NCBI RefSeq assembly: GCF_014696225.1
Contig: NZ_JACJPV010000001.1
Location: 1 to 64,000, forward strand
Direction of reading: 5' to 3'
DNA length: 64,000 nucleotides
Origin: Anabaena sp. FACHB-1237
GTDB lineage: Bacteria; Cyanobacteriota; Cyanobacteriia; Cyanobacteriales; Nostocaceae
Shown in pieces: positions 35,085-48,943 of the stretch. A program made the translations under genes and the position numbers. The number at the start of each line of letters is the position of its first letter. Within the stretch, counting starts at the first letter, position 1. The notes under the pieces were generated by a model that worked only from the letters and a program-made list of their open reading frames with translations, was not told the origin of the DNA and did not search any database.

Positions 35085-36167
35085 ATGAGTGGACAAAAGA
35101 CCTTTAACGTTTCTGGTATTTCTACCCAACCAAGTTTATTTGATGGTGTGACTTCTGCTATACAAGCATATCAAGAACGCAAACGTCAAGAAAAAGAAGC
35201 AATTATTAAAAAAGAGCAGGATATTCAACGGAAAATAGCGGAAATTCGGGCTAAAATTTCCAGTAATTCCCACAAAAAAATAGTTGTTGTACAACCTCAA
35301 TTTAATAATGTGCAAATAGATGATGAAATGAAACAAGCATTATCTCACGATAACCAAATAAAATTACAGAGTTTAAAGCAGCAATTACCGCAAATTAAGG
35401 CAGAATATCAAGGTTTAATTGATCAGCAATTATTAGATAGTAGCAGTTTTCAGGAAACTATACAAAAAACGGAAATAGCATTACAAAATAATAATTTAAT
35501 AGCGGCACAAACCTATTTACAAACATTAGATGATGCCCGTGTACAAGTAATTCAACAGTTGCAAGAAGCACAAAATCAGTGGAGAGAACAACTTGAGTTT
35601 GTTGAGATCAGATTGCATGATTTAAAATCACATATTCCTGGTTTTATTAATCAACAACTACAGGGAAAAATTCAGGAAATTAGTAATAATATCTTGAATA
35701 TTTCTGATCAAGATATCGAAAATTTACATCAGCAAATTAGTAGCTATGAACTACAAGCAGAACAGGTACAAACGGCGGCTAACAATTTAGTAGCATCCTG
35801 GGAACAGGTTGGTTATGTTGCCCATATTGCGGAAATTAGCGATGGTGATGTAATTATTAATATTGAAACCCATGAAGGGGTAAATACGCAAATGCGGATT
35901 CAGTTTGATGGTCAACAAATTGACTTGGCTGGTCCCCATGATGAAGAGGGTGATGCGTCCTGTTCAAGTCGGACTTTTGATGTGATAGAAATCTTTAAAC
36001 AGCAAGGTTATGATGTGCAATGGACACAATGGAATGGTCAACCTGTGGATGAGGAATGGCGCAATGTGGATCTGGGAATTATTTCCGTGAAAACCACTAG
36101 TGAATATGATTTTAATAATACATCTAATAATACATCTACAAGACGTTCTGAAAGCGAAGGATTTTGA
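35085..36167 (+). CDS. Coiled-coil protein, first gene of the GTPase operon
   Basis: 360 residues, family not recognised. Residues about 30-245 are heptad-rich, Gln- and Glu-rich coiled coil (KRQEKEAIIKKEQDIQRKIA and many QQL stretches). Residues about 250-335 form a compact domain (VGYVAHIAEISDGDVIINIE, ending WTQWNGQPVDEEWRNVD). It is followed after 16 bp by the radical SAM gene. The coiled coil suggests a scaffold. The C-terminal domain could be the target modified by the radical SAM protein, but that is speculation. Confidence 0.75.
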   Translation: MSGQKTFNVSGISTQPSLFDGVTSAIQAYQERKRQEKEAIIKKEQDIQRKIAEIRAKISSNSHKKIVVVQPQFNNVQIDDEMKQALSHDNQIKLQSLKQQLPQIKAEYQGLIDQQLLDSSSFQETIQKTEIALQNNNLIAAQTYLQTLDDARVQVIQQLQEAQNQWREQLEFVEIRLHDLKSHIPGFINQQLQGKIQEISNNILNISDQDIENLHQQISSYELQAEQVQTAANNLVASWEQVGYVAHIAEISDGDVIINIETHEGVNTQMRIQFDGQQIDLAGPHDEEGDASCSSRTFDVIEIFKQQGYDVQWTQWNGQPVDEEWRNVDLGIISVKTTSEYDFNNTSNNTSTRRSESEGF

Positions 36168-36183
36168 ATAAAAATAGTAAATT

Positions 36184-36771
36184 ATGACACAATCTCTGTT
36201 ATTGAATATAGCCGCGTTGATGCCTCGTTCTCGTGCTAATGGTCCAGGAACTCGGATGGTAATATGGGTGCAAGGTTGTCCTTTTCGTTGTGTAGGATGT
36301 CAAAATTCCGAGTATTTAGAGTTTAAATTAACTCAAGTGGTGACTGTGGAGGATATTTGGCAAAAATTCCAACAATTTCCTGATTTAGCAGGTATTTCTA
36401 TTTCTGGTGGTGAACCTTTTGCCCAAGCGGTAGCATTAGCTGATTTAGCGCGTCGAGTGCAATCTGCGGGAAAAACCGTTGTTTGTTGGAGTGGGTATCA
36501 ATTACAACAGTTACAATTAAATCATCTTCCTGGTAGCCAAGAGTTCCTAAATCATATAGATTTATTAATTGATGGTTTGTTTATACAGCAGCAAATTAGT
36601 GATGAAATATTAAGGGGTTCAAATAATCAAAAATTACATTTTTTATCTGGGCGAATTGTGGAGGATAATTTATTAAATATACCGCGTCAGGAGTGGGTAG
36701 TAGGTGGGGAAACATTGACATATACGGGGTTTCCAGTGGCATATAAACAAGTTGATAAGGATATGGTATAA
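36184..36771 (+). CDS. Radical SAM 4Fe-4S activating-enzyme-like protein (NrdG/PflA-like)
   Basis: 195 residues. The cluster motif CPFRCVGC is at C32, C36 and C39, followed by ISISGGEPFAQ (SAM-binding GGE). The size and fold fit the activase family, which generates glycyl radicals on a partner enzyme. No glycyl-radical enzyme such as NrdD or PflB is encoded nearby, so it may modify a component of this operon. The last 14 codons lie within a 206-bp tandem duplication. Confidence 0.88.
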   Translation: MTQSLLLNIAALMPRSRANGPGTRMVIWVQGCPFRCVGCQNSEYLEFKLTQVVTVEDIWQKFQQFPDLAGISISGGEPFAQAVALADLARRVQSAGKTVVCWSGYQLQQLQLNHLPGSQEFLNHIDLLIDGLFIQQQISDEILRGSNNQKLHFLSGRIVEDNLLNIPRQEWVVGGETLTYTGFPVAYKQVDKDMV

Positions 36772-37141
36772 AATAGATGAGTATAGTGGTGATAGGCGAT
36801 CGCAAAACTGGCAAAACTAGCATGGTGCGGGCATTGACGGAAAATGGTAAATATGTACAAATCACAGATGGTGATATACTAGCTAGAGATTTATACAATC
36901 CCAGCACGAGGGCAATAGCTGGTACAGAGGCATTGTTTCCAGTGGAATATAAACAAGTTGATAAGGATATGGTATAAAATAGATGAGTATAGTGGTGATA
37001 GGCGATCGCAAAACTGGCAAAACTAGCATGGTGCGAGCATTAGCTGAAAATGGTAAATATGTACAAATCACAGATGGTGATATACTAGCTAGAGATTTAT
37101 ACAATCCCAGCACGAGGGCAATAGCTGGTACAGAGGCATTG
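36730..37141. repeat. 206-bp tandem duplication across the radical SAM/GTPase junction
   Basis: Two units, 36730-36935 and 36936-37141, are identical except for a handful of substitutions. Each holds the end of the radical SAM gene and the first 53 codons of the GTPase A gene. Because the unit length is not a multiple of three, the first GTPase start is cut off by the stop of the repeated radical SAM end. Confidence 0.9.
36777..36977 (+). pseudogene. Duplicated 5' fragment of GTPase A gene
   Basis: 66 codons: the first 52 match GTPase A including the P-loop GDRKTGKT, then the frame runs into the duplicated end of the radical SAM gene (FPVEYKQVDKDMV). It keeps its own start region and could be translated as a short P-loop peptide. 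Confidence 0.85.
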
Positions 37142-37753
37142 ACAACAAAAACATTAAAAATGGAGGTGGACTTACCCGCAACGGGAGCAAGACAATTAAA
37201 CATTTTATGGATAGATACTCCTGGAGAGTTTTGGAGTAACCCCCAACAAAGAAAAGATTCTCCCACTGCTTGGCAAGCAATGGAAGATAAAGTTAAACAA
37301 AGTAAAGCTGTAATTTTAATGTTACCGCCCCATGAAAGTCTAGTTTCTAGTACGAGAATTAATCTATCTCCTGATTATCTCAAACCTTATGAACCTTTAC
37401 CAAATTCTGATCAATGGGTAAATGGTTTACAAAATTGGTTAGACTTTTTGGAACAGCATTGTAAACGAGTCAAACATATAATTATTGCTCTCCATAAAGC
37501 CGATTTATTTTGTGATGTGGCAGCGGAAGGAAAGACTTGGAAATATAACCCCAACAAAGGAGGATCAGCACCTTGGTATGAATATAGTGATTATGTATTG
37601 GAGGCATATTTTGGAGTAGGAAATCAAGTAATTCGTAAATACAAAGGTACAGAAATTGGTGCGCGGACTAACTTTTTTATTACCAGCACCGAAAGCATAG
37701 AATTACTAGAATTGCCCTGGTTATATCTTGCTCCCTATCTGATTTATAGCTAA
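36983..37753 (+). CDS. P-loop GTPase-like protein A
   Basis: 256 residues. P-loop GDRKTGKTSM at 7-16, a DTPGE motif near 77 (WIDTPGEFW, the G3 position) and HKAD near 171 (ALHKADLF, the G4-like position) point to a TRAFAC-type GTPase. It is intact, downstream of a truncated copy of its own start. It is the first of three consecutive GTPase-like genes whose products differ strongly from one another. It probably acts as a switch subunit of the operon's complex. GTP rather than ATP binding is inferred from HKAD. Confidence 0.82.
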   Translation: MSIVVIGDRKTGKTSMVRALAENGKYVQITDGDILARDLYNPSTRAIAGTEALTTKTLKMEVDLPATGARQLNILWIDTPGEFWSNPQQRKDSPTAWQAMEDKVKQSKAVILMLPPHESLVSSTRINLSPDYLKPYEPLPNSDQWVNGLQNWLDFLEQHCKRVKHIIIALHKADLFCDVAAEGKTWKYNPNKGGSAPWYEYSDYVLEAYFGVGNQVIRKYKGTEIGARTNFFITSTESIELLELPWLYLAPYLIYS

Positions 37754-37779
37754 CTACTCACAAAGATAACGATTCCATT

Positions 37780-38661
37780 ATGACTCAAAGCATAATCATT
37801 AAAAAACCACAAGTAACTGCTAATGATATTAGAATTATTGGCTCTCGTAAATCGGGGAAAACCACTTATTTGGCTTCATTATTAAGAATGCCAGAACAGC
37901 TAAAAAAGCAATTTAAGGGATTAAAAATTACAGCCATATCTGACGATGCAGAAGACTTAATTGGATCAGCTAAAGATATTTTAGAACAAGGAGCTATTTT
38001 CACTGGTACAGATATTGGTGATGAACCCTATTTTGCTTTTCAAATTTCGATTCCTGCTACTAAAAAATCACCAGCAATTACATTAAATTTGAATGTAAAA
38101 GATTATTCAGGAGAAACTTTTGAATGTGCTGCTATACCTCAGAAATCATCTGAATTTGAAGAATATTTAGAAGATTGGTTAAGCGCCCAAAGTTGGATGA
38201 TAATGTTAACAGACTGGGAAACAGAAAATGATAGAAAAATCTATGCACCAGCTTTAAAGAAGTTGTTGAAAGAACTATCTGAACAGTCAGAAGTAAATGA
38301 ACATTTAAAAAAGTTAAAAGTGGCAGTGGTAATGAGTAAATGTGAACGGGGCGAATTGTGGCCTTGTCGTTTAGATGCGGAAGAAGATTTATTTCGAGTC
38401 CGTTTAAAGGAAACCTATCAAGTTTTGAAAGAAAACTTACCTCCTTCAAGATTACGGTTTTTTGCCTGTTCTTCCTTTGGCGTATTAAGTAATAGTTATG
38501 GAGAACATGATCCTCGTCCTAATCGTTGGATACCCGATGATGGAAGTTCTGCTGAATTTAGTGCCTATTTAAGAGATGCAAGTATTTGGCAACCCTTCGG
38601 TTTAATTTCGCCACTTTATTGGTTAACCACCGGGAGGGTATTTCATGACGAACGCCTCTAA
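37780..38661 (+). CDS. P-loop GTPase-like protein B
   Basis: 293 residues. P-loop GSRKSGKTTYLASL near 22-35, DYSGETF near 110 (G3-like) and MSKCERGE near 186 (G4-like) are visible. It ends FGLISPLYWLTTGRVF, an ending shared with protein C. B and C are clearly related to each other and only distantly to A. Its end overlaps the next gene by 17 bases. This kind of pair recalls the double-GTPase modules predicted in bacterial conflict systems. Confidence 0.82.
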   Translation: MTQSIIIKKPQVTANDIRIIGSRKSGKTTYLASLLRMPEQLKKQFKGLKITAISDDAEDLIGSAKDILEQGAIFTGTDIGDEPYFAFQISIPATKKSPAITLNLNVKDYSGETFECAAIPQKSSEFEEYLEDWLSAQSWMIMLTDWETENDRKIYAPALKKLLKELSEQSEVNEHLKKLKVAVVMSKCERGELWPCRLDAEEDLFRVRLKETYQVLKENLPPSRLRFFACSSFGVLSNSYGEHDPRPNRWIPDDGSSAEFSAYLRDASIWQPFGLISPLYWLTTGRVFHDERL

Positions 38662-39550
38662 TATTCCTTTAGAAATAGGGGGAAACCAGGAATTTCGCAT
38701 TATTGGTCCTCGTCGTTGTGGAAAAACAGCTTTAATGGCTGCCTTAGCTCGTTGGCCAAATGCTAGAACTGATAGTCCTATTCTTTCTATTGAACCATAC
38801 AACGACGAAGCGGGGGAATTAATCAGTATGGCTCAGGACATTTTAGAAGATGGTAGAGAGTTAGCAGGTACAAGATTTGAAGATATTGATGAGATTAAAA
38901 CTTACAGCTTGTTAATTACTTTAAAAGCTAAATTTCTTAATCATCCTTTAGCTGCCTTAAGAGATAAACCTATTAGAATGCGGGTATCTTGTCGAGAATA
39001 TTCAGGAGAACTCTTTACAGAATTACGGAATATGAGCAATTGTAGCTCACATTTAAGTGATTATTTAGATGATTGTGCTTCTGCATCGGGTTTATTAATA
39101 CTTATTGATAGCACTGCTAAAAAAAGTGCAGAAAGGGAATATGCCCAAGCCTTGGATAATTTACAAAGGGAATTAAATGAACGATTAACTATTAATAATG
39201 GAGGATTACAAAACTATCGCATAGCGGTAGTATTTACTAAATGTGAACAACCTCCAGCATCAGGTTATTGGCAAAATATACCAACTTTTATGGGGTTAAA
39301 TTTTCCCACTGTAAAAACTACATTCACTAAATGGGGTAACACTTGGGGATGTTCAATAAACTACTTTTTCTGTTCTACTTTTGGTACAAAAGGAACACCG
39401 CCTAAACCAAACTTTAAGAAAAATAAAAATGAAAAAGCCACTTATGGAGTTATTGATAAACCACGAATATGGCGACCTTTAGGTTTAGTTGCTCCTTTAT
39501 ATTGGTTAGCAACTGGTAAGGAAGATGATCAATTAAGAGATACCGTTTAA
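38645..39550 (+). CDS. P-loop GTPase-like protein C
   Basis: 301 residues. P-loop GPRRCGKTALMAAL near 21-34, CREYSGELF near 119 and VFTKCEQPP near 199 are in the same positions as in protein B, and the ending PLGLVAPLYWLATGK matches too. The start overlaps gene B and is preceded by GGGAGG. The pair is probably translated together and may form a heterodimer. Confidence 0.82.
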   Translation: MTNASNIPLEIGGNQEFRIIGPRRCGKTALMAALARWPNARTDSPILSIEPYNDEAGELISMAQDILEDGRELAGTRFEDIDEIKTYSLLITLKAKFLNHPLAALRDKPIRMRVSCREYSGELFTELRNMSNCSSHLSDYLDDCASASGLLILIDSTAKKSAEREYAQALDNLQRELNERLTINNGGLQNYRIAVVFTKCEQPPASGYWQNIPTFMGLNFPTVKTTFTKWGNTWGCSINYFFCSTFGTKGTPPKPNFKKNKNEKATYGVIDKPRIWRPLGLVAPLYWLATGKEDDQLRDTV

Positions 39551-39573
39551 TATAAACTCAGGAGGATCAAGTT

Positions 39574-41622
39574 ATGAAAGTTACCATTTACCAATTTTGT
39601 CGAGGATTTGATAATGTTCGTTATTCTGACATATATCAATGTTATGTATCTGGAGGTTATTGCTTTAACCAAATCGCTAGTTTTAATCAAAAAATACCAG
39701 AACCAATTACTAAAGCGGTAATTGATGGTTATTTTAAATTAAATGACAATTATCCACCAGAAGAAAATGATTTCGCGCTTATTGCTAGAGAAATAGATGA
39801 TAAATATTCTGTGTTAGCAGTGGCCAATAGACAATTAGATGATGGAGGTCGTCCTACCATTGGTTATAAATATTTTTGGTTAGAAAAATCATCTCCAGAG
39901 GTTGATGGTATTGGTACTTTAATCCATTGGTGGTCTAAAGAACAGCCTCAATTTGATATGGAGGAATTAGATGAAACATCAGAAAAATCTAAATCTATAC
40001 CTCATTTCTCTTATACGCAAGAACAGCCAAAAATTAATTTTGCACAAAATTTTGCACAAATACTAAAAATTGTAGAAAACATTCATGAACTTCCTAAGAT
40101 TCAAGTAGCTAAAAAAGTAGCTTGGCAAGAATATGAACCATATATAGAAACACACTATTTAGCTTTAGCTATGAGTGAGCGTTCTCATTATTATAATGCT
40201 TGGGCGTGGAATGTTAAGAAACTACAATTACCTACAAGTTTTTTAGCTATTTTTTATAGTAGCAATGAAGATATACCTCATATTTCTAAACTTCCATTAA
40301 CAACTAAACCAAATAATTCTGAATCTAATTTAGACAGTAATACTGAGTTGACAGAAGATAGAGAAAATATAGCTTCACGTCCAAAAAATCTTAGTCAAAC
40401 AGCACCAATTCAAAAAATTAAAAATTGTTTAACTGACATAGCGACAACATTTAATAATCACCATAGATTAGATCGTAAAAGAACTCAAGATTTATTTAGA
40501 TATTTAAGAGAATATCCAGATATAAATTGGGCTGATTGTATCAATGAAAAGATGTTAAAAAACTCTGCTATTGATGATATGTACCCACAATTAATATATA
40601 TGGTTGCTCCTGAATATCCAGCATCTCAACAATGGTTAGTAGAGATGGTTAATTCAGTAAAAATGGAAAGTAAGAAAAAATCTCAACTTAATCAAATATT
40701 TGATGAATGTAGAGAAAAAGCTAGAAGCGTATTAGGTATATTACATTTATCAGAGAACACAAATCAAGAAAGTAATAATAATATTCAATGGGCATTATTA
40801 AATGATAGTCAAGATAATCCAGAAGTAAATAAAAAATTACAAAATTCTATATTTTTGGGGATTAAGTTTTTATTAGAAGACCTAATGAATAAGAAAATAG
40901 ATCCTCAAAAAGTACACTATTTTTTAACTAAATCTGGAACTATTTGGCATGATGAGTTTCAAAAATATGCTAAAGTTTTTCAAAAAATTATGCTAACTGA
41001 AATTAATAAAATGTTACATGAAGATTCAGAAAATCAAAGTTCTGAAATAGAAAAAACTGAAATAGAAAATGATGATAATGAAGTTGTTTTAGAATTTTGT
41101 AAACCAATTTTGAATATAATTAAAAAAATTATTAAAGATAATCAAGATAATCCTTCAGAACATAAGACCTATGGTAAATATAAGAATTTAGCTAAGGTAT
41201 TTCATAAAATAGGAAAAACAAAAGTAGCTAAATTGCTTGAGGATATTACTGAGAATAAAATCACAGAACACATAGGTAGTGAAAAAAAACAGCGCTCTAA
41301 GGTGGAAAAAAATCGGACTCATAACAATGATGATGATGGTTGGGGTATCTCAATACTTTTGTTGATAATATTTATATTAGGAGTTGTCCTGTTTGTAATA
41401 TTTATACATCTCGCCAATAACCCCAATAATAATATTTCACTTTCACAGAAAAATATTTTTTTTGGTATAGGTATTATGTCATTAATTATATGTACTGCTT
41501 CTGCTTTTTTATTTACAAATAAACCACTTGTAATCAAGGATTTTAATATACAAAAATATGTACAATATTTATATATTGTTTTAGCAGTAGCACTTTTAAT
41601 AATAGGTTTATATATTTTCTAA
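39574..41622 (+). CDS. Large GAP1-like membrane protein, paralogue 1
   Basis: 682 residues with an AGGAGG site. The N-terminal domain (1-135; IYQFCRGFDNVRYSDIYQCY, YSVLAVANRQLDDGGRPTIG, YKYFWLEKSSPEVDGIGTLI) resembles in outline the GAP1-type domains found next to double GTPases. A helical middle follows (PIQKIKNCLTDIATTF, APEYPASQQWLVEM). Three membrane spans lie at the C-terminus (about 590-682). It is paralogous to the next gene. The GAP1 link is from family knowledge and is tentative. Confidence 0.7.
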   Translation: MKVTIYQFCRGFDNVRYSDIYQCYVSGGYCFNQIASFNQKIPEPITKAVIDGYFKLNDNYPPEENDFALIAREIDDKYSVLAVANRQLDDGGRPTIGYKYFWLEKSSPEVDGIGTLIHWWSKEQPQFDMEELDETSEKSKSIPHFSYTQEQPKINFAQNFAQILKIVENIHELPKIQVAKKVAWQEYEPYIETHYLALAMSERSHYYNAWAWNVKKLQLPTSFLAIFYSSNEDIPHISKLPLTTKPNNSESNLDSNTELTEDRENIASRPKNLSQTAPIQKIKNCLTDIATTFNNHHRLDRKRTQDLFRYLREYPDINWADCINEKMLKNSAIDDMYPQLIYMVAPEYPASQQWLVEMVNSVKMESKKKSQLNQIFDECREKARSVLGILHLSENTNQESNNNIQWALLNDSQDNPEVNKKLQNSIFLGIKFLLEDLMNKKIDPQKVHYFLTKSGTIWHDEFQKYAKVFQKIMLTEINKMLHEDSENQSSEIEKTEIENDDNEVVLEFCKPILNIIKKIIKDNQDNPSEHKTYGKYKNLAKVFHKIGKTKVAKLLEDITENKITEHIGSEKKQRSKVEKNRTHNNDDDGWGISILLLIIFILGVVLFVIFIHLANNPNNNISLSQKNIFFGIGIMSLIICTASAFLFTNKPLVIKDFNIQKYVQYLYIVLAVALLIIGLYIF

Positions 41623-41637
41623 TGGAAATTAAAAATT

Positions 41638-43920
41638 ATGACAGTTACCATTTACCAATTCTGTAAAGCATTTAATAATGTCCATTATTCAGACGAATAT
41701 AAATGTTATGTATCTGGTGGTTATGCTTTTAACCAAATCGCCCTTCCTAATCAAACAATACCAGAACAAATTCATCAAGCAGTAATTAATGGTTATTTTA
41801 AATTACATGATAATTATCCACCACAAGAAAATGATTTCGCGCTTATTGCTAGAGAAATAGATGATAAATATTCTGTGTTAGCAGTAGCAAATGGGCAAAT
41901 AAATGATGATGGTTGGCCTACAATTGGTTATAAATATTTTTGGTTAGAAAAATCATCTCCAGAGGTTGATGGTATTGGTACTTTAATTTATTGGTGGTCT
42001 GAAAAACAGCCTCAATTTGATATGGCTGAATTATTTGAAACATCACAACCAGAAATATTTTACTATCAAGAATATTTAAAGCCAACTTTTCAAGAACCTT
42101 GGTTACAAGATACTTGGCAAATTGCTGAAAAATTAAACAAAATTCCCTGTACAACTACAGTCAGAAAACACGACTGGAATAGAATACCAGAATATATGAA
42201 AATACACTATTTAGCTTTAGCTTTAAGTCAGCGTGCTAATTTTTTAAATGCTTGGGCTTGGAATGTTAGAAAAATCGCACATCCAGAAAATTTTATATCT
42301 ATATCTTACGCTGAAAGAGAGTATGTATCTAATATTTCTAAACGCCAATTAGTAACGGAATCAAATAATGATGAGTTTAATTATCAGAGTAATAATGTTG
42401 TTATGGAAAATGCACCTTTACCAGTAATTAATCCTATTGAATTACCATCACAAATGGTTAAAAAAATTAAAACTTGTTTACTAGATATAGCCAGAATATT
42501 TAATCATCAAAATAGATTAGATACCAAGAAAACTGAGGAATTATTTGGATATTTAACAGAATATCCACAGGCGGATTTATCTCAATGTATAGATAAAACT
42601 ATGTTAAAAAATTCTGCTATTAATGACAGTTATCCACAGTTAATATATATGATTGTTCCTGAATATCCAGCATCTCAAGAATGGTTATTAGCAATGATAC
42701 AATCATGGGAAAATGAAAGTAAATCAACATCTTTTTTTGATGAGGTTAAAGATAAAACTAAAACTTTTTTAGGTTTATCTGACGATAAAATTCAAAATAG
42801 TATTTTAAAATTTCAACAAGTTTTTTTAGAATATAGTTATGATTATAACAATTATCAAGTAATTGATAAAATAGAAAATTCTATGTATTGTGGTATTAAT
42901 TTTTTATTAGGCAAATTCATTAATCCAAATATGGATGTACAACTAGCTCAAAAATTCCTTTACTTTTTCAAACAATCACAAACTATGTGGAGTTACTATT
43001 TTCTACAATATGCCCAAATATTTGAAAAGATTATTTTCGATCATTATCGAAATTTACAAAATACTCATTATGTGACAATCTTAGATTTTTGTGAACCAAT
43101 TATAAGTATAATTGATAATATTGAATATACTTCTTTAGAAAATAGGAAAAATTTGTATGGTCAATATAAAAATTTAGCTATTATTTTTGCAGAAATGGGT
43201 TATAATCAATCTTCTGAATTATTTTACCGTATTAGTGGTTATAATAGTAATGAAAATATGCCTAATATTTACATTTACAAAGAAAATCCAAATCATCATC
43301 AACGAGAATATCATTTAAGTAAATCTATATTCGGGTTTCTTTTATTTGTTTTTGGTTCTGCTATTTTTTTCGATCATATTAAAGATTGGACAGGAATATT
43401 CATTTTTATTCCTATAACAGTTCTAATTTTATCTAGTATTATTGCTATTCTTTTAACAGGAAATCCTCTGCAAATAGGAAACAAATTTAAGTTAAAATCC
43501 GTTTTAAGTTATATATATATTATGTTAACAGTAACATTTTTGATAATTGGTATTTCTATTGGAGTAATTCAGAGACAACTAATAACAGAAGTTAAAGATA
43601 ACACTAATATATGTAACGCAGAGAATATGAATTTTTTTGAAAATTATGAAACATACAGCCAATGTTACTTAACAGCAGACTACACAACACAAATACAACA
43701 AATTAAACAATTTTTTCTCAACCCAAATTCATACAATACAGAAGTTGAATCAGCTATGATTATGAGTTATATTAGCGGTATTAAAGATGAAGATCATTTT
43801 AATATTAAAATTGCTCAATTTCGAGAGTGTAAAAATAAAGTATTCAGTGATTTTGGAGAATGTATATTAACTAAACAAATGGATGATATTAAACTTAACT
43901 CTGGTAAAAATTCCAATTAA
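41638..43920 (+). CDS. Large GAP1-like membrane protein, paralogue 2
   Basis: 760 residues. The first 140 residues are nearly identical in places to paralogue 1 (NDFALIAREIDDKYSVLAVA, FWLEKSSPEVDGIGTLI), and the middle is similar (SAINDSYPQLIYM, PEYPASQEWLL). Three membrane spans (about 560-650) are followed by an extra tail of about 110 residues with four Cys (NICNAENM..., SQCYLT, ECKNKVFSDFGEC) that would be outside the cytoplasm. The tail is missing in paralogue 1, so the pair may have split roles. Confidence 0.7.
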   Translation: MTVTIYQFCKAFNNVHYSDEYKCYVSGGYAFNQIALPNQTIPEQIHQAVINGYFKLHDNYPPQENDFALIAREIDDKYSVLAVANGQINDDGWPTIGYKYFWLEKSSPEVDGIGTLIYWWSEKQPQFDMAELFETSQPEIFYYQEYLKPTFQEPWLQDTWQIAEKLNKIPCTTTVRKHDWNRIPEYMKIHYLALALSQRANFLNAWAWNVRKIAHPENFISISYAEREYVSNISKRQLVTESNNDEFNYQSNNVVMENAPLPVINPIELPSQMVKKIKTCLLDIARIFNHQNRLDTKKTEELFGYLTEYPQADLSQCIDKTMLKNSAINDSYPQLIYMIVPEYPASQEWLLAMIQSWENESKSTSFFDEVKDKTKTFLGLSDDKIQNSILKFQQVFLEYSYDYNNYQVIDKIENSMYCGINFLLGKFINPNMDVQLAQKFLYFFKQSQTMWSYYFLQYAQIFEKIIFDHYRNLQNTHYVTILDFCEPIISIIDNIEYTSLENRKNLYGQYKNLAIIFAEMGYNQSSELFYRISGYNSNENMPNIYIYKENPNHHQREYHLSKSIFGFLLFVFGSAIFFDHIKDWTGIFIFIPITVLILSSIIAILLTGNPLQIGNKFKLKSVLSYIYIMLTVTFLIIGISIGVIQRQLITEVKDNTNICNAENMNFFENYETYSQCYLTADYTTQIQQIKQFFLNPNSYNTEVESAMIMSYISGIKDEDHFNIKIAQFRECKNKVFSDFGECILTKQMDDIKLNSGKNSN

Positions 43921-43969
43921 ACCAACTAAAAAAAAGCAAAATTTCTTATTAACTACCCCTCCCTAAACC

Positions 43970-45070
43970 ATGAAAAACCTCCCCATTAGAAACGGGTTTT
44001 ACACCCTAGCTGGCATAACTTCCGCCCTCATAGGGTGGAACATCAGTCAAATAGTATGGCAAGAAATAGGCGCTTTATTAGCCCCTTATGTACCCAAAGG
44101 ATTTGGCATTCCTTCCTACATCATCTTATTAGTAATCATCACGCCATGTATAGCCATTGGTATGGTAATTGCGGAAATTTTCATCAGCAACCCTACCCGC
44201 TATAAAATTAACTGGAAAGTGCTTACTCGTACATCTTTAAAAATAGTATTTGTTGTAGGAGCATTTATAGGTTTAATCCTCAGTTTTATCAACTGGATGC
44301 TATTAATAAGTAACTGGCCAGCAGGTGTAGTGAGAATCATTTCCTGGATAACTATAGGAGCTTTCGCCGGACTTTCTGAAAGTATTAGTTGGAGTTGGCG
44401 CAGCATCGAAGGCACAGGAAATAGAGTCCAACAACGTATTATTCAAAGTACCAGTTTTGGGGCTATTGCTGGATTTTTAGCCGCCTTATGTTGTGAAGGA
44501 GTCAACACCGCATTAGGTGGATATCAAGAACCCTTTGGTTTCTTTTTATTTGGTACTTTTTTAGGACTATTTTTATCCTTTGCATCCACACCAGGTTATC
44601 AAGTAGCATTGAGAGCAGGAACAGGATTTGAAGCTAAAAGAACACCTAAAAGAAGAAACCAAAATACACAATTACTAACTAATAATGCTCCCACACAAAT
44701 ACAAAAACCAACATTAAATAATCAAGCTCTCAAATATATTCCCGATGGTAATTACACACATATTGAAGAAGGAATTTCTATTCAATTACCTGGAAAAAGC
44801 AAAAAACCTCTGATTATTGGTTCTGGTGACGATGTAGATATTTATATCCCCCATTTACCAGAACAATCTGCTTCTTTACAAATAACTTCTGGAGGTGTAA
44901 TTCTTCATTGTTTAGCAGAAGATTCTGTAAAAATTCAACAAAGAATGTTACAAGAAAATAAAACCACTACCCTAAAACATAATCAAATTATCACCCTTTA
45001 CCACGAAAACGATGAAAACAAATTCTACAGATTCATATTCTATAATCGCCTCCTGGATCCCCAGGCTTAA
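43970..45070 (+). CDS. Polytopic membrane protein with C-terminal FHA-like domain
   Basis: 366 residues. About five to six membrane spans occupy residues 5-210, including an internal glycine-rich repeat (TIGAFAGLSESISWSW and GAIAGFLAALCC). A polar linker precedes a C-terminal domain (about 270-350: PLIIGSGDDVDIYIPHL, EQSASLQITSGGVILHC, LKHNQIITL) with the look of an FHA domain, which binds phosphothreonine. The classical FHA residues are only partly present. A kinase-dependent input is therefore possible but unproven. Confidence 0.7.
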   Translation: MKNLPIRNGFYTLAGITSALIGWNISQIVWQEIGALLAPYVPKGFGIPSYIILLVIITPCIAIGMVIAEIFISNPTRYKINWKVLTRTSLKIVFVVGAFIGLILSFINWMLLISNWPAGVVRIISWITIGAFAGLSESISWSWRSIEGTGNRVQQRIIQSTSFGAIAGFLAALCCEGVNTALGGYQEPFGFFLFGTFLGLFLSFASTPGYQVALRAGTGFEAKRTPKRRNQNTQLLTNNAPTQIQKPTLNNQALKYIPDGNYTHIEEGISIQLPGKSKKPLIIGSGDDVDIYIPHLPEQSASLQITSGGVILHCLAEDSVKIQQRMLQENKTTTLKHNQIITLYHENDENKFYRFIFYNRLLDPQA

Positions 45071-46415
45071 ATTAAGCATTATCGCTTTTTTCATAGGATT
45101 ATTACCTTTACCAGTCCTAGCAAATGCCAAAATGGAAGTATCACCACGGGGTACAGATGGGGATATTATCACCTTAAAAGTTAAGGTACTTAATGATGAT
45201 AATATTCCCATTGTAGGATTACAAAAATCTGATTTTAAAATCCAAACTGGCAAAATTACGAATTTAAGTAATGATGATACTCCTATTAATTTAAAATACT
45301 CAGAAATTGAGAAATTTCAATTAATTCCTCCAGGAGAACAATTAAAATCTGATCCTGCTTATGTCGTCATACTTTTAGATATGAGTGGAAGTATGAGAGA
45401 AAAAGATGCTAGTGGAGTCAAAAAAATAGATGGTGCAATTCTGGCTATTCGCGGTTTTATTAAATTAGTGCGGGAGAAAAATTTACCTGTACATATTTCC
45501 TTAGTACCCTTTGGAGAATCAAATAAAGCTCAGTATCATTATGAAGTTACACAAGAAGAAATTGCTAAACATTTACTTCCTGCAAATTCACCAGATTTAG
45601 ATAAAAGAGTCTCAGATTTAGCATCTTCTTCTACTAATGCAGCCACTAATTTATATCAACCTTTACAAGAAGCTGTGGAGTATTTAGGTAATAATGTGGA
45701 GGAATTTACTAGACAAGCAAATAGTAGTAATGATCTGAAAAATGATCTGGGAAAAGATGAGGAAAAAATTCCTCCTAAATTAGCAGTAATTTTATTATCT
45801 GATGGCTATCATAATATTGATAGAGGCACGGAAGATCAACAATTTGCCAAATTAGAAAAAGTCTTTAAAGAACATTCTACCGTGAGAGTTTACACATTAG
45901 GTTATGGAGAATCTTTAAAACATTTGCGAGATAGGGCAATTAATTGTAATATTCCCAATAGATTGTTAGATGAAAAACAAGCAGTGGATTTAATTCAATC
46001 TTGTAAATTAACCAATGGTGACATATTCAACTATATTGTAGATCAACCAAGATTAAAACAAATTGCCGAATTAACCGGAGGAATTAGTAAATTTCCTGAC
46101 AATTCCAATGAAGCAGTTAATAGTTTAGAAACCTTTTTTAAGGCATTGAGAGAATATGAATTACAATATCTTCAACCTAATGCAGCACCAGCAGAAAAAT
46201 ATCAAGTACAAGTTAGCGTTAATTCAGCTAAGAGAGAATTAAATATTAATGCTGAACCTGTACAAATTAGGATGTCAAATTTCATTAGTAAATTACCATT
46301 AATTCCAGATCGGTTAATTATTTTAATATTAACATTAGGGATATTAGGGGGAGGTTTATGGGGTTTTAAACGTTGGAGTCAACATTTAAAAGAGGAAGCG
46401 GAAAGGTTTATTTAG
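45012..46415 (+). CDS. Exported von Willebrand factor A protein with C-terminal anchor
   Basis: 467 residues. A signal peptide (about 16-38, ending PVLANA) leads to an N-terminal beta domain. The vWA domain has the MIDAS motif DMSGSMREKD near 124 and LAVILLSDGYHN further on. A C-terminal span (about 435-455, LIILILTLGILGGGLWGF) precedes a short basic tail. The ATG at 45012 overlaps the upstream gene by 59 bases; later ATG codons would lose the signal. vWA proteins of this sort pair with AAA ATPases, and one lies two genes downstream. Confidence 0.85.
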   Translation: MKTNSTDSYSIIASWIPRLKLSIIAFFIGLLPLPVLANAKMEVSPRGTDGDIITLKVKVLNDDNIPIVGLQKSDFKIQTGKITNLSNDDTPINLKYSEIEKFQLIPPGEQLKSDPAYVVILLDMSGSMREKDASGVKKIDGAILAIRGFIKLVREKNLPVHISLVPFGESNKAQYHYEVTQEEIAKHLLPANSPDLDKRVSDLASSSTNAATNLYQPLQEAVEYLGNNVEEFTRQANSSNDLKNDLGKDEEKIPPKLAVILLSDGYHNIDRGTEDQQFAKLEKVFKEHSTVRVYTLGYGESLKHLRDRAINCNIPNRLLDEKQAVDLIQSCKLTNGDIFNYIVDQPRLKQIAELTGGISKFPDNSNEAVNSLETFFKALREYELQYLQPNAAPAEKYQVQVSVNSAKRELNINAEPVQIRMSNFISKLPLIPDRLIILILTLGILGGGLWGFKRWSQHLKEEAERFI

Positions 46416-46424
46416 TGAATATTC

Positions 46425-46457
46425 AGATCCCGGACTTCTTAAAGAAGTCCGGGATCT
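46425..46457. repeat. REP-like palindrome inside the GTPase operon
   Basis: AGATCCCGGACTTCTT and its complement form a 16-bp stem with almost no loop, 10 bp after the vWA stop. Related to 4409-4441. It may attenuate transcription within the operon. Confidence 0.6.
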
Positions 46458-46512
46458 ATTATTGGATCTTCTCTAGTCATACAAAATCCATCATTAATAA
46501 GAGGTTTGCATC

Positions 46513-47088
46513 ATGTCTGAATATACTTTAATTGTCAGAATACCACAAGCAGGAAATAAGGAAATTAGTTATTCTATCCAATTAACTAAACTACATGAAA
46601 GTTATCCAGAAGATTATTTCCGTCAAGAAAATCATCGTTTTTTAATTAGTCAAACCATTGAACAAAAATCAGCTAGAACATTAACTTCAGATAATTTAAC
46701 TGCTATAATTTCTAGTTGGATTACAGATATTAAAGTTGGCCGTCATCGTACTCTGGTAACTTTAGATTTACCTGTGGATACTGCTATTCCTTTACAATCT
46801 GTAATTCCTATCAATAATCCTGTGAATAATGTTAAGAATAATACCATAAATAGTCAAAATCATCCTGTCAATAATCCTGTCAATAATCCTGTTAATAATC
46901 CTGTGAATAATCCTATTGTTGCTCCTGCTAAAAAACCTATAAGACCAGTAGTAACTCCCAATTCTGAAGTAAAACCTGCCACAATTCCTAATCATAATTC
47001 TATCAATAAAGCTGAAAATTCTCCTACAGAAAAAACACCAGAACCAGTACCAGATATTAGAACTGATACCAATAAAGCAGATTTTTAA
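46513..47088 (+). CDS. Protein with N-terminal compact domain and NNPV repeat linker
   Basis: 191 residues. Residues 1-95 form a compact domain of unknown family (EYTLIVRIPQAGNKEISYSI, ISSWITDIKVGRHRTLVTLD). The rest is low-complexity with five or six NNPV or NPVN tetrapeptides encoded by a 12-bp DNA repeat (46858-46917), followed by a Pro- and Lys-rich tail. It is likely a soluble adaptor. It precedes the AAA gene after a repeat-containing gap. Confidence 0.7.
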   Translation: MSEYTLIVRIPQAGNKEISYSIQLTKLHESYPEDYFRQENHRFLISQTIEQKSARTLTSDNLTAIISSWITDIKVGRHRTLVTLDLPVDTAIPLQSVIPINNPVNNVKNNTINSQNHPVNNPVNNPVNNPVNNPIVAPAKKPIRPVVTPNSEVKPATIPNHNSINKAENSPTEKTPEPVPDIRTDTNKADF

Positions 47089-47104
47089 GTATATCAAATA
47101 ACTT

Positions 47105-47220
47105 GAGGTACACTATCAACAGGCAAGATGCCTGTGTTACAGGTGCTTACTGCTGGTATGAATATCTACATACCAGGACAGTACACTATCAACAGGCAAG
47201 ATGCCTGTGTTACAAGGGTT
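47105..47220. repeat. Two copies of a palindromic repeat around AACAGGCAAGATGCCTGTGT
   Basis: The 33-bp segment ACTATCAACAGGCAAGATGC...TGTGTTAC occurs at 47114 and 47183, 69 bp apart. A reverse copy lies at about 57379-57409. Too few and too irregular for CRISPR. Confidence 0.75.
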
Positions 47221-47296
47221 TAATCATTAATATCTGTACCTCATAATAACGGAAACTGCTGTATCTCTAAAAATTTTGAAAAATGAGGAATTTAAA

Positions 47297-48943
47297 ACTA
47301 TGAAATCTGAATTACCCTATCATAAATGTCAACAAGAATTACAGGATTTATTAAAATCTCGTTATCCGTTAATTTTTGTGAGATCATCAGAAGAAAATCG
47401 CGCTATTCGTTGTATAATTGATGCTCATTTAGCAATTTTAAATAGTCCAGATATTCCAGATGGAGAATTAGCACAATGGAATAGTACAGAAGGTTTTCAA
47501 CAAAGATTAGAAAATGCCGGATCTCCTCAACAAGCACCTCAAAAACAAGTGGAATGGCAAAGATTGGGTAATGCTATTGATAGAAACGGTAATCCAATTT
47601 TGCAATCTTTAGATTTTCTGCAAAATCATTTACAGCACCAAGTTAGTAAAAATCTCCAAAGACAACATACCTATTTATTACCTGATTGGTCGGTTTTATT
47701 ACGTGCTGATGATCATTTAATAGCCCGAAAATTGAAGGAATTAATAGTAGCCATAGACCAAAAAAGACCTGTAGTCAGAATGTCTTTAATTATCATTGGT
47801 GCTGATTGGAATATCCCTACTATTTTACGGAATATGGTACATATTATAGATTTACCTTTACCTGTGGAAGAAGAACTTTATGAAAATGTTTTTAGTGTGG
47901 CTGTAGAAAAATATGGTTTAAGTACAGATGATGCCTGGAGATTAGCAGAACAAGCTCAAGGAATGCCTTTACAAGCTGCAATTCAAGCCGCTAAATTATC
48001 AACTTCTCGTAATTTGTGGCATGATGCCAATGCAGCAGCAGAATTATTATTAGAAGCCAAAAAACAGGAAATTAGAAAAACAGGAGTTTTAGAATATTAT
48101 GCTCCCTCTGGTCAAGGTTTAAATGATGTGGGAGGATTAACTAAAGTCAAAGAGTGGATATATAATCGTGAGTGTTGGTTTACTCAAGATAGACAACCAG
48201 AATTACGTCCTCGTGCTATTTTATTGGAAGGTTTTCCAGGTTGTGGTAAAACATTTATAGCTAGAGCGATCGCTCAAGAATGGCACGTACCCCAAATAAA
48301 TTTTGAAATTTCTCGTTTACAATCTCGTTGGGTAGGAGAATCAGAAAGTAACACTTTTCAAGCCTTAAAAGCCATTGAAGCATCTGCCCCAAATATTCTA
48401 TTTATGGATGAAATTGAAAAGGCTTTTGCCGGAGTTGGAGGAGATAGTTCTGGAGTAAGTACCAGACAATTTGGAACATTTTTATCATGGTTAAATGATC
48501 ACGAATATCCGATTTTTTTCATTGCTACTTCTAATGATAGAGAAAAATTACCTCCAGAATTATTTCGTGCAGGACGTTTTGATGAAATATTTATAGTTAT
48601 GCCTCCTAATACTGAGGAAAGATATCAAATTTTGCAAAAACGCACTATGGCTTATAAATTACCTCCCACTCCTGCTTCTATTTTAGAATATTTAGTAGAA
48701 AAAACTCCCGGTTATTCTGGTGCAGAATTAGATAAATTAGTTAAAGAAGCTATTTATTTAGCAGAATATGGTAATATTCCTAATAAGACTAATTGGGAAA
48801 ATGCCTTAACTGAAATTAGTCCTCAATATCGCACTCCTAATATGCAAAAGTTGTTACGCAAGTATCTAAAACTAATTGAAGAAGGAGGAGGTAAATCAGC
48901 GTCAGAATTAGAAATGGGTTTTTTAGAAAATCTGATTACTTGA
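47297..48943 (+). CDS. Ycf46-like AAA+ ATPase, last gene of the GTPase operon
   Basis: About 548 residues from ATG 47300 region; an upstream in-frame start at 47276 adds seven residues. The N-terminal region (about 1-250) contains a degenerate first AAA-like segment (YPLIFVRSSEENRAIRCIID, SLIIIGADWNIP). The AAA module has the second domain DVGGLTKVKEWI, Walker A GFPGCGKTFIARAIA, Walker B NILFMDEIEKAF and arginine-finger RAGRFDE. This is the Ycf46 pattern of cyanobacteria. It probably remodels or gates the vWA and GTPase components. It is followed by a convergent gene. Confidence 0.85.
   Translation, partial: TMKSELPYHKCQQELQDLLKSRYPLIFVRSSEENRAIRCIIDAHLAILNSPDIPDGELAQWNSTEGFQQRLENAGSPQQAPQKQVEWQRLGNAIDRNGNPILQSLDFLQNHLQHQVSKNLQRQHTYLLPDWSVLLRADDHLIARKLKELIVAIDQKRPVVRMSLIIIGADWNIPTILRNMVHIIDLPLPVEEELYENVFSVAVEKYGLSTDDAWRLAEQAQGMPLQAAIQAAKLSTSRNLWHDANAAAELLLEAKKQEIRKTGVLEYYAPSGQGLNDVGGLTKVKEWIYNRECWFTQDRQPELRPRAILLEGFPGCGKTFIARAIAQEWHVPQINFEISRLQSRWVGESESNTFQALKAIEASAPNILFMDEIEKAFAGVGGDSSGVSTRQFGTFLSWLNDHEYPIFFIATSNDREKLPPELFRAGRFDEIFIVMPPNTEERYQILQKRTMAYKLPPTPASILEYLVEKTPGYSGAELDKLVKEAIYLAEYGNIPNKTNWENALTEISPQYRTPNMQKLLRKYLKLIEEGGGKSASELEMGFLENLIT

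Follow-up and report, generated by a model that had tools for sequence, protein, structure and literature searches.

A three-GTPase, membrane-linked gene cluster of cyanobacteria occurs in two locus types and encodes a predicted longin/DENN-type protein

The first 64,000 nucleotides of contig NZ_JACJPV010000001.1 of Anabaena sp. FACHB-1237, hereafter the window, contain a cluster of eleven intact plus-strand genes, named A to K, that spans positions 35085-48943 and centres on three GTPases and two paralogous membrane proteins. A preliminary description of this DNA had reported a continuous plus-strand series over the same span with overlaps at 38645/38661 and 45012/45070, and the series and both overlaps (D/E and H/I, respectively) were recovered as claimed. 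The twelve open frames that it counted are reduced to eleven intact genes, the twelfth being probably a 66-residue truncated remnant of the GTPase1 gene (C) at 36777-36977, left by a 206-bp tandem duplication from which both B and C emerge whole. The features of the cluster are as follows.

35085..36167, plus strand: A, 360 residues, with a long helical part and a small C-terminal sheet-helix domain in the predicted model
36184..36771, plus strand: B, small radical S-adenosylmethionine (SAM) protein with CxxxCxxC, NrdG-like, by Fer4_12 and Radical_SAM matches
36729..36934 and 36935..37140, strand not applicable: 206-bp tandem duplication, 98% identical, covering the end of B and the start of C
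36983..37753, plus strand: C, GTPase1 by its motifs DTPGE and HKAD, with DO-GTPase scores below cut-off
37780..38661, plus strand: D, GTPase2, DYSGE and SKCE, DO-GTPase1 over cut-off
38645..39550, plus strand: E, GTPase3, EYSGE and TKCE, DO-GTPase2 over cut-off
39574..41622, plus strand: F, GAP-like membrane protein with a predicted longin/DENN-type N-terminal region (residues ~1-250), a helical middle and three C-terminal spans
39838..39852, plus strand: residues D89-R93 of F, conserved, in a loop between two predicted strands, candidate GTPase contact
41638..43920, plus strand: G, paralogue of F (48% identical) with three spans
43970..45070, plus strand: H, four predicted membrane spans and an FHA-like C-terminal region, by span prediction and weak FHA matches among relatives
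45012..46415, plus strand: I, vWA protein with an intact metal-ion-dependent adhesion site (MIDAS) by alignment and a hydrophobic segment near each end by hydrophobicity
46513..47088, plus strand: J, small conserved protein of both locus types (alignment n=17)
47300..48943, plus strand: K, Cdc48-like AAA+ ATPase (AAA 97.3 bits), start placed from relatives

The three P-loop proteins named in the preliminary description are present with the motifs it gave, DTPGE in C, DYSGE in D and EYSGE in E. Among their relatives the P-loop pattern was found in 68/68 C, 74/75 D and 81/82 E sequences, and the D/E-xxGE pattern, in which a Glu follows DxxG, in 61/68, 64/75 and 72/82, respectively. A Glu after DxxG in the Walker B region is a feature of DO-GTPases (PMC7159879). 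By Pfam cut-offs, D and E are members of the DO-GTPase family, with D scoring 37.0 bits against DO-GTPase1 and E 29.9 bits against DO-GTPase2 (cut-off 27 for both), and to this extent the assignment to the double-GTPase family made earlier holds. It does not extend to C, which fell under both cut-offs (DO-GTPase2 19.3 bits, DO-GTPase1 17.7 bits). When the family consensus sequences were compared with the same models, E scored 32.3, D 25.9 and C 22.7 bits. The G4 motif reads NKAD or HKAD in 60/68 C proteins, the window protein having HKAD and its relatives mostly NKAD. In D (66/75) and E (51/82) G4 is mostly SKCE or TKCE, and the guanine specificity of D and E is therefore described as putative.

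Conservation of the cluster was assessed by scanning genome contigs with the E alignment and taking the best 80 of 96 relatives. All 80 loci are cyanobacterial by record title, a result that speaks for the scanned loci only, since the scan patterns were built from cyanobacterial sequences. The working alignments A5, A6, A8, A9 and A10 hold 10, 12, 55, 40 and 27 rows, respectively, of the sequences available. With only loci having enough flank entered in the denominators, E is accompanied by D in 73/75 loci, by C in 61/64, by F in 63/66, by H in 43/49 and by I in 42/49. By this co-occurrence the core of the cluster consists of the GTPases C, D and E, the GAP-like F/G, the FHA-like H and the exported vWA protein I, which bears out the earlier proposals of one conserved operon encoding a membrane-linked GTPase system and of a third GTPase as a core part. 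The 17-nucleotide overlap of D and E is conserved, given that exactly 17 nucleotides were found in 10/12 other loci holding A/B or K (mechanically called open reading frames). The preliminary description had also asked whether the members occur separately from each other. Those of the core mostly occur together; E-type domains are found in addition alone, inside fusion proteins, and A, B and K are confined to a subset of loci.

This subset, together with a second gene complement, defines two locus types. Type I, to which the window locus belongs, consists of the core with A, B and K. A and B always occur together (11/11 loci), as expected from the claim that the radical SAM protein is a built-in component, and K is present in nine of these loci; in the other two the stored sequence stops 2.4 kb past E (L049) or within I (L060). 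The downstream genes of type II were found in 28 loci, none of which holds A, B or K, so that by gene content these three are restricted to one of the two types. Downstream of the core, the type II locus L030 carries genes for three putative lipoproteins, of which one has an ARC6-like IMS domain, then for a membrane vWA protein and J; behind J come another vWA protein, a protein with zinc-ribbon and FHA domains, a PP2C protein and a TPR-repeat Ser/Thr kinase. The genome of the window holds both types, with the type II locus on contig C11 (L028).

The presence of the cluster is patchy, with F matched in 23/195 genomes of the order (the search gave 27 matches, of which 20 regions were examined, plus one more), and a separate genome search in which six candidates were scored per genome counted at least 20 of 388 genomes. 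D-like genes were found on eight cyanobacterial plasmid records, some of them near copies of one another. The two plasmids whose gene tables were examined are type II by gene order and annotation, namely Trichormus variabilis ATCC 29413 plasmid B (L158), classed as non-mobilizable, and plasmid3 of Nostoc linckia NIES-25, classed as conjugative. On the former the cluster occupies about half of the 35.8 kb, is partly annotated as hypothetical proteins and includes an extra gene annotated as a serine hydrolase. In a tree of GTPase3 (E) a long, fully supported branch separates 24 rows from 61 others, and these 24 comprise 15 type I rows, four fusions and five loci without a type call. Set against each other within this clade, the type I and fusion labels take three changes each, and shuffled labels did as well in 131 and 105 of 500 cases, respectively; a single origin of type I or of the fusions is thus not shown. 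Several of these rows are long branches, among them the additional E copies of L053 and L060, which account for part of the type I changes. At L053 and L060 the additional E-type gene, a fourth and divergent GTPase gene, sits between B and C. The Crocosphaera loci L063, L064 and L078 form a side branch in the same clade, with two or three GAP-like genes and no A, B or K in the stretch seen.

F and G had been described as GAP1-like three-span paralogues, and the three hydrophobic spans and the relationship (48% identity) stand. The GAP1 label does not. Neither F nor G matched a GAP1 family in Pfam, directly or with the family consensus, and GAP1 was absent among 25 of the 36 families listed for 22 members (the others with one member each at most). 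GAP1-N2 was over cut-off in 0/8 genomes and, in another search, in 0/291 with one weak match; in both searches Corynebacterium glutamicum served as the positive control. For GAP1-N1, -M and -C the coverage is that of the whole-Pfam scans. A peptidoglycan-binding domain, PG_binding_1, was matched in 10/22 GAP-like proteins, F and G not being among them. The F/G tandem of the window compares with a single GAP-like gene in the Dolichospermum loci L048 and L050, and a second copy is present in several other loci.

An AlphaFold model of F residues 1-560 (55 sequences) reached a mean predicted local distance difference test (pLDDT) score of 85.4 and a predicted template modelling (pTM) score of 0.57. 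The main N-terminal order in this model is strand, strand, helix, three strands, helix, which is the longin order. A second aligner was used to re-score Foldseek's own list for F, and its top 11 rows have Z-scores of 4.7-7.3. The best match is TagF (9t0n; Z 7.3, 216 residues, root-mean-square deviation (rmsd) 5.2), followed by ten chains at Z 4.7-5.4 from GATOR1, Commander-DENND10, FLCN-FNIP2, SEAC, Lst4 and DENND1 entries, the subunits being presumed from chain length and matched range. The N-terminal region of F (residues ~1-250) is accordingly predicted, from the model, to be of longin/DENN type, a reading adopted because the match list agrees with itself and the gene partners fit, and not on the Z-scores alone. 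Three results count against it. Foldseek returned no match for F at E <= 0.001 (TagF came first at E 0.0093), the ranks below TagF mix unrelated folds (LOV, PYL, fluorescent proteins), and all Z-scores are below 8, a range that unrelated folds can reach. D89 and R93, conserved in 70/79 and 72/79 sequences, lie in a loop between the model strands 78-89 and 94-104 that is a candidate GTPase contact. Longin domains have been proposed to derive from prokaryotic Roadblock GAPs and are described as an ancient GTPase-interacting domain (PMC3521125).

Of the remaining core proteins, H has four predicted spans, and its claimed FHA-like character is weakly supported. Pfam FHA was matched in 6/40 members (best E 0.026), with the window protein unmatched, and the best PDB matches of its C-terminal region are Ki-67 chains at E 0.014 and 0.017, over a stretch that is presumably the FHA domain of Ki-67. 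The vWA assignment of I rests on a complete MIDAS (D123, S125, S127, T212 and D264, invariant in 27 sequences), its scores being under cut-off for VWA_2 (22.7 bits against 27) and for TIGR03436 (46.7 bits against 81.25). The vWA domain is predicted to lie outside the inner membrane because a hydrophobic segment lies near each end, which agrees with the earlier view of an exported protein. J occurs in both types and matched no Pfam family; its PADLOC match to a REase_II nuclease (21.7 bits, E 1.7e-5) lies over Asn/Pro-rich repeats and was judged compositional.

K, called Ycf46-like in the preliminary description, is a AAA+ ATPase as stated there (Pfam AAA 97.3 bits), and its start is most likely the ATG at 47300 rather than the TTG at 47276, judging by the family consensus. 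The comparison with MoxR fails since K is Cdc48-like by its best models. The best NCBIfam match is CDC48 at 94.9 bits, far under its cut-off, AAA_3 scored 12.7 bits against a cut-off of 27, and FtsH_fam was far under cut-off. The nearest other AAA proteins in the window genome are 35-36% identical to K.

B is a small CxxxCxxC radical SAM protein by profile (Pfam Fer4_12 114.3 bits, Radical_SAM 31.5 bits), as described earlier, whereas its designation as an activase is weakened: the best NCBIfam match, NrdG TIGR02491, reaches 100.2 bits and misses its cut-off of 126.1, and the NrdD partner was found in 0/10 type I genomes (controls positive in 6/14; of the ten, only the window genome has a stated completeness). 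Two of these ten genomes have a glycyl-radical domain that passes the cut-off, and the other eight, among them the window genome, have none. A role of B as ribonucleotide-reductase activase is thus unlikely. B orthologues (at least 221 bits) were found in 5 of 195 genomes of the order, and scores elsewhere are at most 141 bits and belong to a related, widespread family. This gap and the linkage to A mark B as a family of its own that goes with A. The window genome (L190, contig C67) and many others encode a further NrdG-like radical SAM protein, which is widespread, although NrdD was not found in the window genome.

Protein A has invariant M1, S2, G3, K5 and C293 in an alignment of 10, and its model (mean pLDDT 71.4) shows a long helical part and a small C-terminal sheet-helix domain. 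The window protein matched no Pfam family, and Foldseek found no fold at E <= 0.001; the 50 rows listed by the second aligner (Z 5.5-8.4) are common small sheet-helix folds (METTL16, spermine synthase, KA1, RnlA) and were not used. Identification of A as a glycyl-radical protein was rejected because an R..xGY-like tail is not conserved (n=10), and a possible relationship to DUF1257/DUF2997 found no match among 25 of the 50 families listed for the 10 members. Given the linkage of A with B and the invariant C293, A may be the substrate of B.

The strongest evidence for a link to conflict systems, as had been suggested for the cluster, comes from E-type GTPase domains fused into larger proteins, found at L057, L061, L199 and L202. 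At L057 (Nostoc sp. FACHB-152) the domain follows SAV_2336 (511.7 bits) and scores just above the cut-off of 27 (DO-GTPase1 27.2, DO-GTPase2 27.3 bits); the next gene encodes EAD10-NACHT, with AAA and WD40 genes upstream. The L202 domain, which scores 35.6 bits against DO-GTPase2, comes after SAV_2336 (451.5 bits) and GUN4. At L061 (Anabaena subtropica), next to an EAD10 gene, the E-type domain is shortened (model positions 13-201) and lies behind nSTAND1, and at L199 the domain follows a Ser/Thr kinase; neither of these two fusions gave a DO-GTPase match at E <= 0.001. An EAD10-NACHT or EAD10 gene thus stands beside the fusion in two of the four cases. EADs, vWA-MoxR systems and GUN4 effectors are among the conflict-system parts described in PMC7159879. 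According to the same paper, core pairs like DO-GTPase-GAP1 do not undergo exchange. The DO-GTPase domains inside SAV_2336-type proteins, at the Pfam cut-off in L057 and L202, contrast with that statement. L057 and L061 also have a weak ADP-ribose-binding-like stretch.

Among the closest described systems is the DO-GTPase/GAP1 system (Kaur et al. 2020, PMC7159879), which shares DO-GTPases with a Glu after DxxG, a GAP-like gene directly after the GTPase gene with C-terminal membrane spans, and a vWA protein with membrane segments; its third GAP1-N2 theme resembles type II in having kinase, PP2C and vWA genes. It differs from the present cluster, which has three GTPases and a GAP-like protein missed by the GAP1 profiles, is cyanobacterial where PMC7159879 names other phyla as main GAP1-N1/N2 holders, and in type I adds the radical SAM protein, protein A and the Cdc48-like AAA protein. 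No FNIII-repeat (GAP1-N2) or GASH (GAP1-N1) component appeared in the Pfam matches of the eleven proteins. The vWA-MoxR ternary system (VMAP/SAV_2336; PMC7159879) likewise combines a vWA with a AAA+ protein, as in type I, and E-type domains are elsewhere fused to SAV_2336 proteins, but K is Cdc48-like rather than MoxR, the cluster vWA is exported, and no VMAP, iSTAND or double-FtsH partner was found among the matches of the cluster proteins. Eukaryotic longin/DENN regulators (GATOR1, FLCN-FNIP, DENND; PMC3521125) resemble F 1-250 in predicted element order and as best matches; F, unlike these, is bacterial, membrane-anchored and without a sequence match to them, its GTPase binding being predicted. 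TagF of type VI secretion (PMC5995506) is the best structure match of F, and FHA, kinase and PP2C genes are shared with type II, although type VI core genes were not recognised in the cluster and the word GTPase does not occur in PMC5995506. B resembles the NrdG activase in being a small CxxxCxxC radical SAM protein, and differs in that its constant neighbour is A and not NrdD, which the type I genomes searched did not yield.

Taken together, we hold at about even odds the reading of the cluster as a GTPase threshold switch of the conflict-system type, tethered to the membrane and probably to the wall, with exchangeable control arms. In such a switch D and E would be paired for regulation, and C would join them as a third component. 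F/G would contact the GTPases through the R93 loop of the predicted longin/DENN-type N-terminal region, and this binding would drive hydrolysis or exchange of GTP. Outside the membrane, I would use its metal-ion site to sense or to adapt, and H would relay the state from one side of the membrane to the other. Disassembly by K would reset the complex. The threshold would be set by B through modification of a cluster protein, in the simplest case A close to its invariant C293, and this arm would stand in for the kinase, phosphatase and FHA proteins of type II. From these parts a direction of signalling, a trigger and an output are inferred, and the output would most likely be an envelope-linked protective or cell-sacrificing response, in which case the cluster would have an immune role. 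No toxic or nuclease domain that could act as effector was recognised in the cluster proteins, and this is one of several points that weigh against the switch as proposed. The profile searches gave no GAP1 family for F/G, the structure matches of F are middling, the D family consensus is just under the DO-GTPase1 cut-off (25.9 against 27), H and I are out of reach in 6/49 and 7/49 loci, K occurs without A/B at L058 (the same place as L032) and at L034, protein A has no match on the plasmids, and relatives of the cluster were absent from the phage records and viral contigs searched. PADLOC, run on ten proteins with G left out, gave no specific defence match; K matched IetA-type models as a generic AAA protein, and B matched pVip at 0.0066.

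A non-immune envelope system would account for the PG_binding_1 domain of 10/22 GAP-like proteins, the exported vWA protein and the putative type II lipoproteins, one of them with an ARC6-like IMS domain. Such a system would monitor or remodel the cell wall or the septa in filamentous cyanobacteria, and the GTPases would serve it as a switch for polarity or stress, in the manner of MglA/MglB or of the DO-GTPases linked to the phage shock protein (PSP) system. A DO-GTPase protein occurs in some psp operons, where membrane-related stress is mentioned (PMC11237479). The envelope reading is considered rather unlikely in view of the patchy distribution (23/195), the plasmid copies and the SAV_2336/nSTAND1 fusions with EAD10 genes beside two of four, and none of six tested genes flanking the cluster in the window was found beside other copies (few kb covered). 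Control of a contractile or secretion machine, comparable to that of type VI secretion by TagF, PpkA, PppA and Fha, is improbable. It draws on the TagF match (Z 7.3 over 216 residues, rmsd 5.2), on the kinase, PP2C and FHA genes of type II and on the action of TagF on Fha in type VI secretion (PMC5995506), but the type II genes are absent from type I loci, and type VI core domains are missing from the Pfam matches of the scanned cluster proteins, a result that covers these proteins and not the rest of the genomes. That B is a housekeeping NrdG-type activase lying in the operon by chance is highly improbable: set against NrdG as best NCBIfam match and the glycyl-radical domain in 2/10 genomes are a score under the NrdG cut-off, the lack of NrdD in 10/10 genomes and of a glycyl-radical domain over cut-off in 8/10, the constant company of A in 11/11 loci, and the fall from at least 221 bits in five genomes to at most 141 across the 195.

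A bolder form of the threshold-switch reading, which is offered tentatively and at clearly less than even odds, would make F and G bacterial longin-plus-DENN regulators, the counterpart of GATOR1, FLCN-FNIP and DENN, acting on a switch of three GTPases with anchors in both membrane and wall. Its threshold would be set by interchangeable covalent arms, in type I radical SAM chemistry on A and in type II the phosphorylation of proteins. TagF would represent another branch of the fold, and SAV_2336 and nSTAND immune proteins would have received the GTPase domain as an effector module. As a candidate bacterial longin/DENN-type GTPase regulator, F/G bears on the origin of its eukaryotic counterparts, and a three-GTPase branch in two interchangeable forms would add to the predicted conflict systems of multicellular bacteria. 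A description of the cluster was not found in literature searches on DO-GTPases, GAP1/TRADD-N, cyanobacterial vWA/PP2C/FHA/GTPase proteins or EAD/NACHT conflict systems, although the source data of PMC7159879 could list some of the genes.

The cluster is flanked upstream by a ThiF-rhodanese gene and downstream by a carbonic anhydrase gene, both on the minus strand. In the few kb on each side that the open reading frames of L028-L127 cover, no copy of six flanking window genes was found. Scans for promoters and terminators gave counts within chance expectation (79 against 73.7 +/- 10.7 and 5 against 6.9 +/- 3.0, respectively). In the close Dolichospermum relatives L048 and L050, the spacing between B and C is 5-6 nucleotides.

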